From assembly GCA_000299095.1 (NCBI GenBank), contig CP003809.1, positions 62,001 to 126,000 on the forward strand: 64,000 bases of DNA, given 5' to 3'. This document shows, piece by piece, positions 14,205 through 17,677 of this stretch. The notes beneath the pieces were generated by a model. It was not told where the DNA came from and searched no databases. It saw only the letters and a list, made by a program, of their open reading frames with translations. Numbering within the stretch: position 1 is the first letter of the stretch; each line of letters starts with the position of its first letter. Both the position numbers and the translations under genes were made by a program. This DNA comes from an alpha proteobacterium HIMB5 (GTDB lineage: Bacteria; Pseudomonadota; Alphaproteobacteria; Pelagibacterales; Pelagibacteraceae).

Positions 14205-14501
14205 ATGACCAAGTTTATTTTATTTTTCTTTATTTTTAATTTTTTAATTGGATGTCAAACAGTTAAAGAAAAAACAGATGAAATTGTAAAAAAAGAAAAT
14301 GAAAAGCTAAGTACATTTATTGGCAAGCCTGTTTCAAACTTGAAATCAGAATTAGGTATTTCAGATGAAGATTTCTTAAATGAAAGTGGAAATAAAGTAA
14401 TGATTTATAAAACTAGAAAATATGGGATTCCTTGTGAACGAAAATTTGAGATTGGTGAAAATGAAATTGTAATTGGTTTTATTTCGAAAGGATGTTTTTG
14501 A
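14205..14501 (+). CDS. Small predicted lipoprotein
   Basis: A 98-residue protein with a signal peptide and lipobox LIGC (Cys at about residue 17), followed by a short charged helix (KEKTDEIVKKENEKL). The compact remainder contains FIGKPVSNLKSELGISDEDF, KVMIYKTRKYGIPCERKF and a final Cys. The two mature Cys residues could form a disulfide. The fold hint (G-x-P-x-x-L then a beta-rich part) resembles small outer-membrane lipoproteins of the SmpA/BamE type, but I do not claim that identity. It is the only gene in this unit and ends in a strong hairpin. Confidence 0.75.
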   Translation: MTKFILFFFIFNFLIGCQTVKEKTDEIVKKENEKLSTFIGKPVSNLKSELGISDEDFLNESGNKVMIYKTRKYGIPCERKFEIGENEIVIGFISKGCF

Positions 14502-14505
14502 TCAA

Positions 14506-14532
14506 ACTTGCGGAGATAAAATCTCCGCAAGT
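14506..14532. terminator. Hairpin between the small lipoprotein and hsp20
   Basis: A perfect 12-bp inverted repeat (ACTTGCGGAGAT / ATCTCCGCAAGT) with a 3-base loop lies in the 39-base gap between two convergent genes. It starts 4 bases past the lipoprotein stop and ends 8 bases before the hsp20 stop. A T-rich run is not immediate on either side, but position and stem strength favour a shared terminator. Confidence 0.8.
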
Positions 14533-14540
14533 AAGGTTAT

Positions 14541-14987
14541 TTACTTTATTTCTATAAGTTTTTTCTTCTTATGTTCAGGTACAATTCTTTCACAAGAAAT
14601 TGTCAAAAGACCATCTTTAAGCTCTGCACCATTTACCTTTACATCATCAGCAATTGTAAATGATCTTGCAAATTGTCTTTGAGATATTCCTTTATGAATA
14701 ATCTCCCCATCCACATTTTTATCTTCAGATTTATTAACTTGTTTTGTTCTTACAGTTAATAAATTATCCTCAAACTCAACTTCCACATCATTTTTGTTAA
14801 AACCAGCTAAAGCAACCTCAATAGCATAGTTGTCTTTTCCAGTTCTTCTGATGTTATAAGGCGGATAGTTTGATTGCATTGTCAAACTTCCATTACCTAA
14901 CATATTTTCAAATTGATCAAACATATCATCAAATCCAATTGAAAATGGTCTTAGTGAGTTAAATATAGATAGATCCTTACTTGTCAT
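14541..14987 (-). CDS. ibpA: Small heat-shock protein Hsp20 (IbpA-like)
   Basis: A 148-residue alpha-crystallin-type holdase that binds unfolding proteins under heat stress. The N-terminus FNSLRPFSIGFDDMFDQFEN and YPPYNIRRTGKDNYAIEVALA begin the domain. EVEFEDNLLTVRTK, HKGISQRQFARSFTIAD and the C-terminal GLLTISCERIVPEHKK complete it. The IPX-type tail motif is near the end (IVPEH). The order and length match class A Hsp20 of alphaproteobacteria. The leader carries a heat-shock promoter match and a ROSE-like thermometer, both listed separately. Confidence 0.95.
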   Translation of the reverse strand: MTSKDLSIFNSLRPFSIGFDDMFDQFENMLGNGSLTMQSNYPPYNIRRTGKDNYAIEVALAGFNKNDVEVEFEDNLLTVRTKQVNKSEDKNVDGEIIHKGISQRQFARSFTIADDVKVNGAELKDGLLTISCERIVPEHKKKKLIEIK

Positions 14988-15041
14988 AGTTTCCTCCTTT
15001 TATTAAGCAAGTTATTTGGTAAGCCCCATTAGGCGACTTAC
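14985..15041 (-). promoter_or_regulatory. ROSE-like RNA thermometer in the hsp20 leader
   Basis: The minus-strand leader has two elements. First is a 23-base GC-rich hairpin at 15041-15019 (GTAAG...CTTAC arms). Second is CTTGCT at 15011-15006, which can pair with the Shine-Dalgarno AGGAGG at 14998-14993 across a 7-base loop. The pairing register gives U-A, C-G, G opposite G, U-A, U-G, C-G. A U(U/C)GCU motif pairing with AGGA through a G-G mismatch is the defining feature of ROSE thermometers, known upstream of hsp20 genes in rhizobia. Spacing from SD to ATG is 5 bases. Function is inferred, not shown. Confidence 0.65.
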
Positions 15042-15047
15042 TAAACT

Positions 15048-15082: not shown

Positions 15083-17158
15083 TTATATTTTATTCGAAAT
15101 TTTTAAGGCAAAAGCATAGTCAACTGCAATTTCTTCTATTGCTCCATCTCTACCAGATTTACCGCCATGACCAGCGTTCATTTCTGTTTTTAAAAGTAAT
15201 AAATTATTGTCAGTTTTATAGTCTCTTAATTTTGCAGTAAATTTTGCAGGTTCATCGAACAATACCCTATTATCACTCAAGCTTGTTGTAATTAAAATAT
15301 TTGGGTAATCCATTTTTTTTATATTGTTATAGGGTGCGTAAGAATAAATATAATCAAAATGTTCTTTTATATCTTTAGCATTACCAAATTCATCAAATTC
15401 ACCAATTGTAAGTGGTAATGAATGATCTAGATTTGTAGTTAATGAGTCCACAAAAGGAACAGCCATTATTATTCCTAAAAATAATTCAGGAGCACTATTA
15501 ACAACTGCTCCCATTAATAAACCACCAGCAGAACCACCCATTCCAATTATTTTTTTTTTAGAAGTATATTTATTATCAATCAAATATTTTGCAGCATAGA
15601 TGTAATCTTCAAAAGTATTTTTTTTATTTAAAAGTTTACCTTCTTTCCACCACTTCATACCTTTTTCCATACCCCCTCTAATATGTGCAGTAGCCCAAAT
15701 AATGTCTCTGTTAATTAAACTTAGTCTGGTAGATGAAAATATTGGATTCATAGAACTTCCATAAGATCCATATCCATATAATAACAAATTAGCTGAACCA
15801 TCTAATTTTGTATTTTTGTGTCTTGTAATTGTTAAAGGAACTAATCTCCCATCATGAGACTTATATTCTATTCTTTCCACTACATAATCACTAGGATTAT
15901 GACCTGATGGAATTTCCTGTTCCTTAACAAGAGCTTTTTCTTTAGTTTGAAGGTTATATCTATAAACTCTCGAAGGTGTTTTTGGTGAAGAATAACTTAG
16001 ATAAACTGTATCTGTATTTTTATCTCTTTGCATTAAAGACACCCCAGGAAAGGTCACCGTTTCATCCGAAAAAACAAGTTCTTCTTCTAACCCTGTTTTA
16101 ATATTTTTAACAAAGATTTTATCTAATGCATTTGAGGTTTCTGATCTTAAAATCCAATTATTTAAAAAAGTACACCCGCCAACTAAAACCTCTTCTTTAG
16201 GTGGAATAAAATCTGACCATTTCTGGTTTTCTAGACTGTTTGAAATTTCAACTTTAAAATCTTCTGCATTCTCGTTGGTATGGTTATAGAATTTATTATC
16301 CCAAGAGTTTACAGAATATAAAACTCCTTTTTTTCTTTTTTTGATGAGTTTAGGTTTTGGTTTTTCTTCATCTGATTTAAAATAATATTGTTCAGATGTG
16401 TTATGGTCTGATGTAGAAATAAAAAAATATTTCTCATCCGAGCTTAAGCTAATACTTACAGTAAAAGCATCACTTTTTTCGTTGAAAATTAATTCATCTT
16501 CTTCAACTTTAGTTCCAAGTTTATGTCGATATATTGTTCTTGCTCGATGGTTATCATCTAGTTTTGAGTAAAAAATATAATTGTCGTCTAAGCTGAAAGT
16601 TATACTTCCAGAAGTATCTTTTATTTCTGGTGATATCGCTTCTTTACTTTTTATATCTCGTATAAATATTGAGTAATATTCTGATCCTTTTGTATCTAAT
16701 GAATAACCTAGATATTGATCATTAAAGCTCACTTCTAAATCGCCAACACCGAAGTATTCAACACCTAACTTTTCTTTCTCTTGATCACCATTCCAAATTT
16801 CCTCAACGGTTGAAGAATTAATTTTTTTTCTTAATTTTATGGAGTAATTTCCTTTTGTGGTAGTTTTTGTCCAATACTCATATGTATGATCTTTGTATGG
16901 AAGAGACTCGTCATCTAATTTAATTCGTCCTTTAATTTCATCAAATAAAGTTTTTTGTAAATCTTTTGTATCTTTAAGATGATGGTCTGCATAAATGTTT
17001 TCATTTTCTAGGTATTCTTTAACTTCTGGATTAAGTTTATTTTTATCTTTTAAAACTTCTAAAATATTTTCTTGATGTATCCAGCTATAATTATCTTCCC
17101 ATGTAACATTATGACATGATTTAAGTTCTGGTTTTTTTTTAAGATGTGGTATTTTCAT
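15083..17158 (-). CDS. ptrB: Oligopeptidase B, S9 family serine peptidase
   Basis: A 691-residue prolyl-oligopeptidase-type enzyme, length typical for PtrB, that trims peptides after basic residues. An N-terminal seven-bladed propeller (about residues 70-400) gates a C-terminal alpha/beta hydrolase. The nucleophile is in IGMGGSAGGLLMGAVVN (about residue 530). The catalytic His is in MNAGHGGKSGRDGA, and DNRVLFDEPAKFTAKLR lies between them with the Asp. ATAHIRGGMEKGMKWWKEGK is the conserved PtrB block. No signal peptide is present, so it is cytoplasmic. Its start is close to the divergent J-domain gene. Confidence 0.93.
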   Translation of the reverse strand: MKIPHLKKKPELKSCHNVTWEDNYSWIHQENILEVLKDKNKLNPEVKEYLENENIYADHHLKDTKDLQKTLFDEIKGRIKLDDESLPYKDHTYEYWTKTTTKGNYSIKLRKKINSSTVEEIWNGDQEKEKLGVEYFGVGDLEVSFNDQYLGYSLDTKGSEYYSIFIRDIKSKEAISPEIKDTSGSITFSLDDNYIFYSKLDDNHRARTIYRHKLGTKVEEDELIFNEKSDAFTVSISLSSDEKYFFISTSDHNTSEQYYFKSDEEKPKPKLIKKRKKGVLYSVNSWDNKFYNHTNENAEDFKVEISNSLENQKWSDFIPPKEEVLVGGCTFLNNWILRSETSNALDKIFVKNIKTGLEEELVFSDETVTFPGVSLMQRDKNTDTVYLSYSSPKTPSRVYRYNLQTKEKALVKEQEIPSGHNPSDYVVERIEYKSHDGRLVPLTITRHKNTKLDGSANLLLYGYGSYGSSMNPIFSSTRLSLINRDIIWATAHIRGGMEKGMKWWKEGKLLNKKNTFEDYIYAAKYLIDNKYTSKKKIIGMGGSAGGLLMGAVVNSAPELFLGIIMAVPFVDSLTTNLDHSLPLTIGEFDEFGNAKDIKEHFDYIYSYAPYNNIKKMDYPNILITTSLSDNRVLFDEPAKFTAKLRDYKTDNNLLLLKTEMNAGHGGKSGRDGAIEEIAVDYAFALKISNKI

Positions 17159-17173
17159 TTTGAGACGAAATAC

Positions 17174-17677
17174 ATGAATATAATAATTTATACAGTAGTA
17201 ATTTTGACGTTGTTCTACTTTATTCTTAAATTTTTAACCAATATTTCACCAAAAAAAATATCTAAAAGTCTTAGGATCCTAATAATTTTTGGATCAGTGA
17301 TTTTAGCTATTTTATTTGCTATAGGTGGAAAGTTTTTACTGTCTTTACCCTTAACATTAATTAGCTTGGGTCTAATGAAGTTAAAGGGTTTATCTTTATT
17401 CCAATTATTTTCATTATTCAGGCTTATTCAAACTTTAAGAAGTTCTGGTAGATTTAATTTTAGCCAATCAAGTACAACAAATAATACAACAATGACAGTT
17501 TCTGAAGCTTACAAAATTCTTAACTTAGATATGAAAAAAAAAATTACTAAAGAAGATGTAAATAAAGCTTATGTAAACATACAAAAGAAAATACATCCTG
17601 ATGTTTCTCCAGAAACTGCAAGACTATCAGCTATAGTAAATGAAGCAAAAGAGGTTGTATTAAGAAATATTTCTTAA
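17174..17677 (+). CDS. Membrane protein with C-terminal J-domain (Pam18/TIM14-like)
   Basis: About 167 residues from the ATG at 17174. A longer frame begins at 17144, but it would overlap the start of the divergent ptrB, so I prefer 17174. Two or three hydrophobic segments fill the first 90 residues (IIIYTVVILTLFYFILKFL, then ILIIFGSVILAILFAIGGKF). The last 60 residues form a degenerate J-domain, MTVSEAYKILNL..., with an intact HPD in KKIHPDVSPETARLSAIVNEA. A J-domain behind membrane anchors is the layout of mitochondrial Pam18 and its alphaproteobacterial relatives; it likely recruits DnaK to the membrane. Partner unknown. Confidence 0.8.
   Translation: MNIIIYTVVILTLFYFILKFLTNISPKKISKSLRILIIFGSVILAILFAIGGKFLLSLPLTLISLGLMKLKGLSLFQLFSLFRLIQTLRSSGRFNFSQSSTTNNTTMTVSEAYKILNLDMKKKITKEDVNKAYVNIQKKIHPDVSPETARLSAIVNEAKEVVLRNIS

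Follow-up and report, generated by a model that had tools for sequence, protein, structure and literature searches.

Does the hsp20 mRNA of a SAR11 bacterium carry its own temperature sensor? SAR11 bacteria, which rank with the most numerous cells on Earth, possess few regulators. We addressed this question in a Pelagibacter-like (SAR11) bacterium whose 1.34-Mb genome forms a single contig; the stretch analysed, referred to as the window, is 64,000 nt long. An earlier note on the window had proposed a ROSE-like RNA thermometer in front of hsp20, and comparison with relatives supported this proposal through conservation, covariation and association with hsp20 across families. We put the probability that the hsp20 5′ leader contains a short ROSE-type RNA thermometer at roughly 0.85. 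Judged from sequence comparison, the structure of this mRNA very probably holds expression of the gene back until warming.

Layout of the hsp20 leader

The presumed regulated gene, hsp20 (14541–14987, minus strand), encodes a small heat-shock protein of 148 amino acids (Pfam HSP20 PF00011, E = 2.9e-17). The protein was 91–97% identical to the 80 records kept, all of them from Pelagibacteraceae or Candidatus Pelagibacter. Its leader occupies 15041–14985 on the minus strand and ends with the ATG start codon (14987–14985).

The leader begins with hairpin 1 (15041–15019), which is indicated by both folding and covariation and consists of a 7-bp stem with one bulged G (15034), a CC/GG cap and a 4-nt loop. 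Read on the minus strand, its letters are GTAAGTC, the bulged G, CC, the loop TAAT, GG and GGCTTAC; by hand count, 12 of the 23 bases are G or C. In hairpin 2, the anti-Shine–Dalgarno strand CTTGCTT (15011–15005), which holds the ROSE motif UUGCU, faces the Shine–Dalgarno sequence AAGGAGG (14999–14993). Both strands were recognised by their conservation in leaders, and the second also from the predicted fold. The inner pairs are T15005–A14999, T15006–A14998 and C15007–G14997, followed by G15008 opposite G14996, and the outer pairs are T15009–A14995, T15010–G14994 and C15011–G14993. The coordinates and the CTTGCT/AGGAGG pairing given in the earlier note, including the G opposite G, are present in the sequence as it described them. 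A fourU thermometer has four consecutive U residues opposite the Shine–Dalgarno sequence; the SAR11 strand reads CUUGCUU, and this class was rejected.

Conservation and covariation among relatives

Taken alone, the motif in the window sequence is not above chance. TTGCT followed after 3–10 nt by AGGAG had one occurrence in the window, where 0.72 would be expected, and was present at least once in 54 of 100 shuffles. Across the genome, counted at any position relative to genes, the looser pattern TYGCT-N3–10-GGAG was found 77 times, compared with 19 for the reversed pattern. The fold of the leader was not unusual either (z-score −0.95).

Rfam gave a mixed picture. A gathering-level search of the window returned no family. 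In a search of 401 bases, ROSE_3 (RF02523) covered hairpin 1 through the start codon exactly, with a score of 19.4 bits (E = 0.11). Three unrelated families scored 16.9–19.0 bits in the same 401 bases, and one of them, SCARNA7, had a better E-value than ROSE_3. In the whole-genome search with ROSE_3, the hsp20 leader was not reported, and the sole match lay elsewhere (11.4 bits). When the loci of 19 relatives (62 kb, E ≤ 10) were searched, 12 matches were obtained over all Rfam families; four were to ROSE_3, every one on an hsp20 leader (22.3–28.3 bits). The search with ROSE covariance models that the earlier note had suggested thus placed ROSE_3 on the leader, but with a score far under the gathering cut-off of 43, so that the leader does not belong to the family by score.

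We then aligned the leaders of relatives. From 110 loci, L029 and L030 were removed as members of another family (f2), whose different leader was kept out of the genus alignment; L075, whose contig starts 3 nt upstream of hsp20, and eight duplicates were also dropped, which left 99 distinct genus-level leaders. CTTGCT followed by GGAG was present in all 99, with the end of GGAG 5–8 nt from the ATG, and G15008 within the motif was invariant. GCC with its unpaired, bulged G in hairpin 1 was likewise found in 99/99. In this hairpin, 95.4% of cells were paired, and six of the nine pairs showed changes on both sides. Over the whole structure, 49 cells had changed on both sides of a pair compared with 18.6 in shuffles, and a control in which the partners were slid gave 4–19 such cells. 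Thirty of the 49 fell at a single pair and may derive from few events. By number of pairs the signal was weaker: seven pairs had changes on both sides, a value equalled by 36 of 500 shuffles. RNAalifold, applied to the same alignment, returned hairpin 1 only. Hairpin 2 is nearly invariant and therefore adds next to nothing to the covariation signal; its support is conservation. The earlier note had stated that absence of covariation in relatives, or loss of the CTTGCT/AGGAGG pairing while the gene stays regulated, would speak against a ROSE-like element; hairpin 1 covaries, and the motif and GGAG are kept throughout.

The register of hairpin 2 may differ slightly from that drawn for the window. 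The base 3′ of GGAG was G in 79 leaders, with T and A in 12 and 8 others, and neither GGAG nor the C that precedes TTGCT ever varied; this pattern appears to fit a register with a bulged G a little better than one with G opposite G, which ViennaRNA favours for the window. The original ROSE structure paper reportedly describes a syn G–G pair. In either register, an invariant G15008 lies within the pairing as an opposed or a bulged G. The other features expected of a ROSE element were also found: U(U/C)GCU is predicted to pair imperfectly with the Shine–Dalgarno sequence in the 3′-most hairpin (99/99 leaders), the stable upstream hairpin is maintained by pairing rather than by its letters, as seen in the covariation of hairpin 1 and in its arms in other genera and families, and the gene whose 5′ leader holds the element encodes a small heat-shock protein, as identified by Pfam HSP20.

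Distribution beyond the genus

A covariance model, R1, was built from the leader alignment. In the source genome it gave one strong site, with 76.8 bits. A second match (L113; 19.5 bits, E = 1.64) overlapped both the last part of an ORF and the beginning of the following one, had no hsp20 gene, and was dismissed as chance level. Among 297 genomes of the order, 221 contained an R1 site at E ≤ 0.1. We checked 20 of the 76 genomes without a match: 19 had no hsp20 match, and one had fragments alone. Because these 19 genomes lacked a match to the gene as well as to the RNA, hsp20 and its thermometer may have been lost jointly, assembly gaps being the alternative. Completeness of the checked RNA-less Pelagibacterales genomes (e.g. 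G172 and G190) was 86–100%. One R1 match (G075, E = 0.066), from a genome in which no hsp20 match was obtained, is presumably spurious.

Over 385 alphaproteobacterial genomes, R1 gave 18 matches, five in the same family and 13 outside it. Nine of these 13 were immediately upstream of hsp20 genes with 37–56% identity. At the out-of-family loci the stem letters were mostly different, and GCC-loop-GG together with U(U/C)GCU-GGAG was recognisable in most. Once relatives are included, the conserved structure predicted from the alignments is beyond chance, as the motif was found in 99/99 leaders, covarying cells numbered 49 against 18.6 in shuffles, and nine of the 13 out-of-family matches preceded hsp20.

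The remaining four out-of-family matches were not before hsp20. Three (L152, L156 and L157), with no hsp20 in the locus and no recognisable heat-shock ORF downstream, were taken as chance. The fourth, L154:1501–1573 in the class-level genome G692, scored 30.6 bits and carries ATTGCTTTAACAAAAGGATAT before an ATG; by eye, the translation of the ORF directly downstream reads as an RpoH-type sigma factor. Within the order, the sister family f2 (L029, L030 and L175–L182) has a longer hsp20 leader, apparently with three hairpins by eye, whose last block is like TTTAATCGCTTAAGGAGGATTAAA and contains UCGCU. This leader is perhaps another ROSE-like layout; no ROSE match was obtained in the f2 loci L029 and L030.

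Promoter and predicted occlusion of the ribosome-binding site

Just upstream of the leader lies a sigma-32-like promoter (15075–15049, minus strand), with a −35 box TTGAAA (15075–15070) and a −10 box CCTACAT (15055–15049) separated by 14 nt. These boxes are close to the sigma-32 consensus CTTGAA-N13–18-CNCCATAT printed in PMC3669281. The promoter is also seen in relatives. Across 106 genus-level loci (L078 was left out, its leader being too short), TTGAA was present between −110 and −60 in 106/106 leaders compared with 277/2120 shuffled sequences, and TTGAA with a loosely defined −10 box 15–19 nt further on in 102/106 compared with 154/2120. The source genome contains rpoH (TIGR02392, 359.6 bits, above the cut-off). 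We infer that transcription starts near 15042, at the foot of hairpin 1. Since a sigma-32-like promoter lies just upstream and rpoH is in the genome, regulation of hsp20 is probably double, through the RNA element and through the promoter.

We also calculated the cost of opening GGAG in 98 genus-level leaders, leaving out L147, L160, L161 and repeated sequences. At 20°C the mean cost was 1.69 kcal/mol in real leaders compared with 3.25 kcal/mol in shuffled ones, i.e. the site was less hidden, and only 4% of the leaders exceeded their own shuffle mean. The mean in real leaders dropped little by 37°C, to 1.52 kcal/mol. In the energy model, then, the predicted temperature response of the leader is weak.

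These calculations bear on the alternative that the region is static, with hairpin 1 stabilising the transcript, the sigma-32 promoter doing all of the heat regulation, and CTTGCT lying opposite AGGAGG without sensing temperature. Weak predicted occlusion would agree with such a region, as would the confinement of nearly all covariation to hairpin 1 and the presence of a promoter of the right type. A static region does not, however, account well for the persistence of hairpin 1 and of U(U/C)GCU before GGAG in front of hsp20 in several other families despite turnover of the stem letters. The element is also retained where the promoter looks different: in four loci of one family (L149, L150, L155 and L158), the boxes, examined by eye, resemble TTGACA/TATATT rather than sigma-32. 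We consider a static region improbable and favour the ROSE-type thermometer. Upstream of some of these four loci we also noticed a TTGACAT...TGTCA-like repeat.

Comparison with known thermometers and a proposed mechanism

The closest known counterparts of the SAR11 leader are the short ROSE-like elements of Pseudomonas ibpA. In PMC3669281, these are described as having a sigma-32 promoter, a 61–62 nt UTR, two hairpins and U(U/C)GCU, and as having been tested experimentally; variants lacking G39, the counterpart of G15008, were repressed (in one species the deletion was combined with U38C). The same source refers to a list with over 40 predicted ROSE elements. Both systems share a small heat-shock gene, a sigma-32-like promoter, a leader of about 60 nt, a stable hairpin 1, a short hairpin 2 in which U(U/C)GCU faces the Shine–Dalgarno sequence, and an AUG predicted to be unpaired. 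The SAR11 version differs in being AT-rich, and its temperature response is a predicted one. Its bulged G at the GCC cap and its conserved coding-side complement may be further differences. The earlier note had regarded about 55 bases with two hairpins as a minimal form. This view did not hold: two hairpins in about 60 nt are not a new minimal form, because the Pseudomonas ibpA thermometers already have that size and layout (PMC3669281).

With Rfam ROSE_3, the leader shares the two-hairpin order, a G left unpaired ahead of CC in hairpin 1, an ACUxGCU strand and an AUGAC start; it is several bases shorter, and its score is under the cut-off. The classical long ROSE elements of rhizobial hspA and E. 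coli ibpA, as described in PMC3669281, are alike in the motif, the class of target gene and a last hairpin containing the Shine–Dalgarno sequence, but they have three to four hairpins whereas the SAR11 leader has two. PMC11342760, which defines the class by U(U/C)GCU with a bulged G, reports ROSE-like elements before ABC transporter genes. As in SAR11, UUGCU with a bulged G faces the Shine–Dalgarno sequence in these elements; there, the P2 hairpin alone suffices, and the genes and lineages differ from those of SAR11. The terms hsp, chaperone and heat are absent from the main text of the 2009 P. ubique structured-RNA survey (PMC2704228), and ROSE figures there only as the opening letters of an author's name. 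Likewise, no SAR11 thermometer was described in the literature passages retrieved on Pelagibacter and RNA thermometers. What is possibly new here is a partner in the coding sequence; the ROSE-type switch itself is already known elsewhere.

We propose that transcription from the sigma-32-like promoter would produce a leader about 55 nt long with hairpin 1 at its 5′ end. By analogy with Pseudomonas, hairpin 1 would be stable, stay folded and insulate the downstream segment. In the cold, CUUGCUU would pair imperfectly with AAGGAGG in hairpin 2, its G either bulged or facing a G, and this would keep the 30S subunit from the paired Shine–Dalgarno sequence. Warming would melt the weak hairpin 2, and Hsp20 would then be made. 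The covariance model and about 100 aligned leaders provide a basis for testing how the thermometer is tuned in warm- and cold-water lineages, and the same leaders provide a basis for asking whether codons belong to the sensor.

Codons 2–4 as a possible second partner of the anti-Shine–Dalgarno strand

Codons 2–4 of hsp20, ACA AGT AAG (14984–14976), showed no synonymous change in 103/103, 103/103 and 101/101 genes, respectively (104 distinct coding sequences, with one incomplete sequence dropped). They were the only such sites among 122 amino-acid-conserved sites. Lysine 4 was AAG in all 101 genes that have it, and two further genes have a different residue. At the ten further lysine sites conserved in hsp20, AAA predominates. 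In neighbouring genes, too, lysine near the start is most often encoded by AAA, and in codons 2–6 of 63 window ORFs (65 mechanical ORFs minus two that overlap larger ones) AAA and AAG numbered 53 and 5. Within these codons, AAGTAAG (14982–14976) could form 7 bp with CUUGCUU, one of them a G–U, and its candidacy as an alternative partner of 15011–15005 comes from predicted folding and recoding. Such a 7-bp complement within the first 30 nt was found in only two of the 63 ORFs, one of which was hsp20.

A second reading extends the ROSE thermometer rather than denying it. Codons 2–4 could act as an anti-anti-Shine–Dalgarno, so that CUUGCUU would have two possible partners, AAGGAGG in the closed state and AAGUAAG in the open one, where the Shine–Dalgarno sequence would lie in a 22-nt loop. 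Synonymous sites would be under selection, and the balance between the two states would set a low switching temperature for a cold-ocean cell. By drawing CUUGCUU away from AAGGAGG, the codons would then loosen the lock. If true, a codon-encoded competitor moves the heat-shock switch to temperatures that suit a cold-water organism. The invariance of the codons, the use of AAG against the general preference for AAA, and the rarity of such a complement near the start all favour this arrangement.

Folding calculations give it further, model-based support. With the RNA cut after codon 3, ViennaRNA drew hairpin 2 with G opposite G at 4–42°C. With more coding sequence included, hairpin 2 had the lowest energy at 5°C, and the CUUGCUU–AAGUAAG stem did so at 15, 25 and 37°C. 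Folding across temperatures, as the earlier note had suggested, thus upheld hairpin 2 in the short RNA but displaced it at 15–37°C in the longer one. Across 105 leaders (L025 was skipped, as its codon 4 breaks the alternative stem), the mean cost of the alternative stem fell from 1.13 kcal/mol at 5°C to 0.40 kcal/mol at 37°C, while that of hairpin 2 was flat at 1.60–1.68 kcal/mol. The alternative stem would therefore gain weight with temperature, although these energy differences are within model error.

Recoding gave a divided result. Among 40 of 96 eligible leaders, the single-codon changes AAG to AAA and ACA to ACT lowered predicted GGAG opening in 34/40 and 38/40, respectively, as expected of a competing partner. 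For AGT to AGC, the native codon was more open in only 7/40 leaders; as AGC would open GGAG more, codons 2–4 are not simply tuned for opening. They look balanced rather than maximal in this respect, or may have another role. In 25 leaders, moreover, the modelled temperature response of native sequences was no larger than that of recoded variants (30/15°C ratio, mean rank 0.20), and pairing of TCN serine codons with GGAG may explain part of the recoding effect in this sample.

Comparative evidence was likewise two-sided. All 31 further genus-level loci, which come partly from the same organisms, begin with ATGACAAGTAAGGA, and this start was kept in 9/9 loci from two other genera. The block was missing in four other genera of the family (six loci in all), though L171 has AGTAAG one codon earlier. 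Both strands of CUUGCUU–AAGUAAG are invariant, which makes covariation impossible there. Codon invariance alone is not unique to hsp20, because the neighbouring prolyl oligopeptidase gene has invariant codons too: in 59 sequences, five of 33 conserved sites within the first 60 codons were invariant, three of them consecutive (13–15). A third gene used as a control had two invariant codons. The control in the neighbouring gene led us to lower our estimate slightly, and we offer the pairing of CUUGCUU with codons 2–4 as a tentative extension, itself rather doubtful, of the ROSE-type thermometer.

Alternatively, codons 2–4 may be conserved for some other reason, such as an internal Shine–Dalgarno-like AAGGA (AAG GAT), a site for a protein or small RNA, or chance. 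AAG GAY forms AAGGA in 101 of 103 genes, and the run of invariant codons in a neighbouring gene also agrees with an explanation of this kind. An internal AAGGA, however, requires neither ACA nor AGT to be invariant, and the conserved block stops where the predicted pairing partner stops. We judge such other roles possible but on the unlikely side. The ROSE-type thermometer formed by CUUGCUU and AAGGAGG is the reading that we prefer for the leader itself.

Other features of the locus

Two further features were noted near hsp20. Between this gene and a 98-aa ORF (14205–14501), a perfect 12-bp inverted repeat, ACTTGCGGAGAT, with the loop TTT, spans 14506–14532; by eye, it looks like a terminator common to the two convergent genes. 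Upstream of hsp20 and past the prolyl oligopeptidase gene, a 177-aa ORF (17144–17674) on the strand opposite to hsp20 carries a C-terminal DnaJ domain (Pfam E = 2.6e-6; 27.9 bits, cut-off 27.8).
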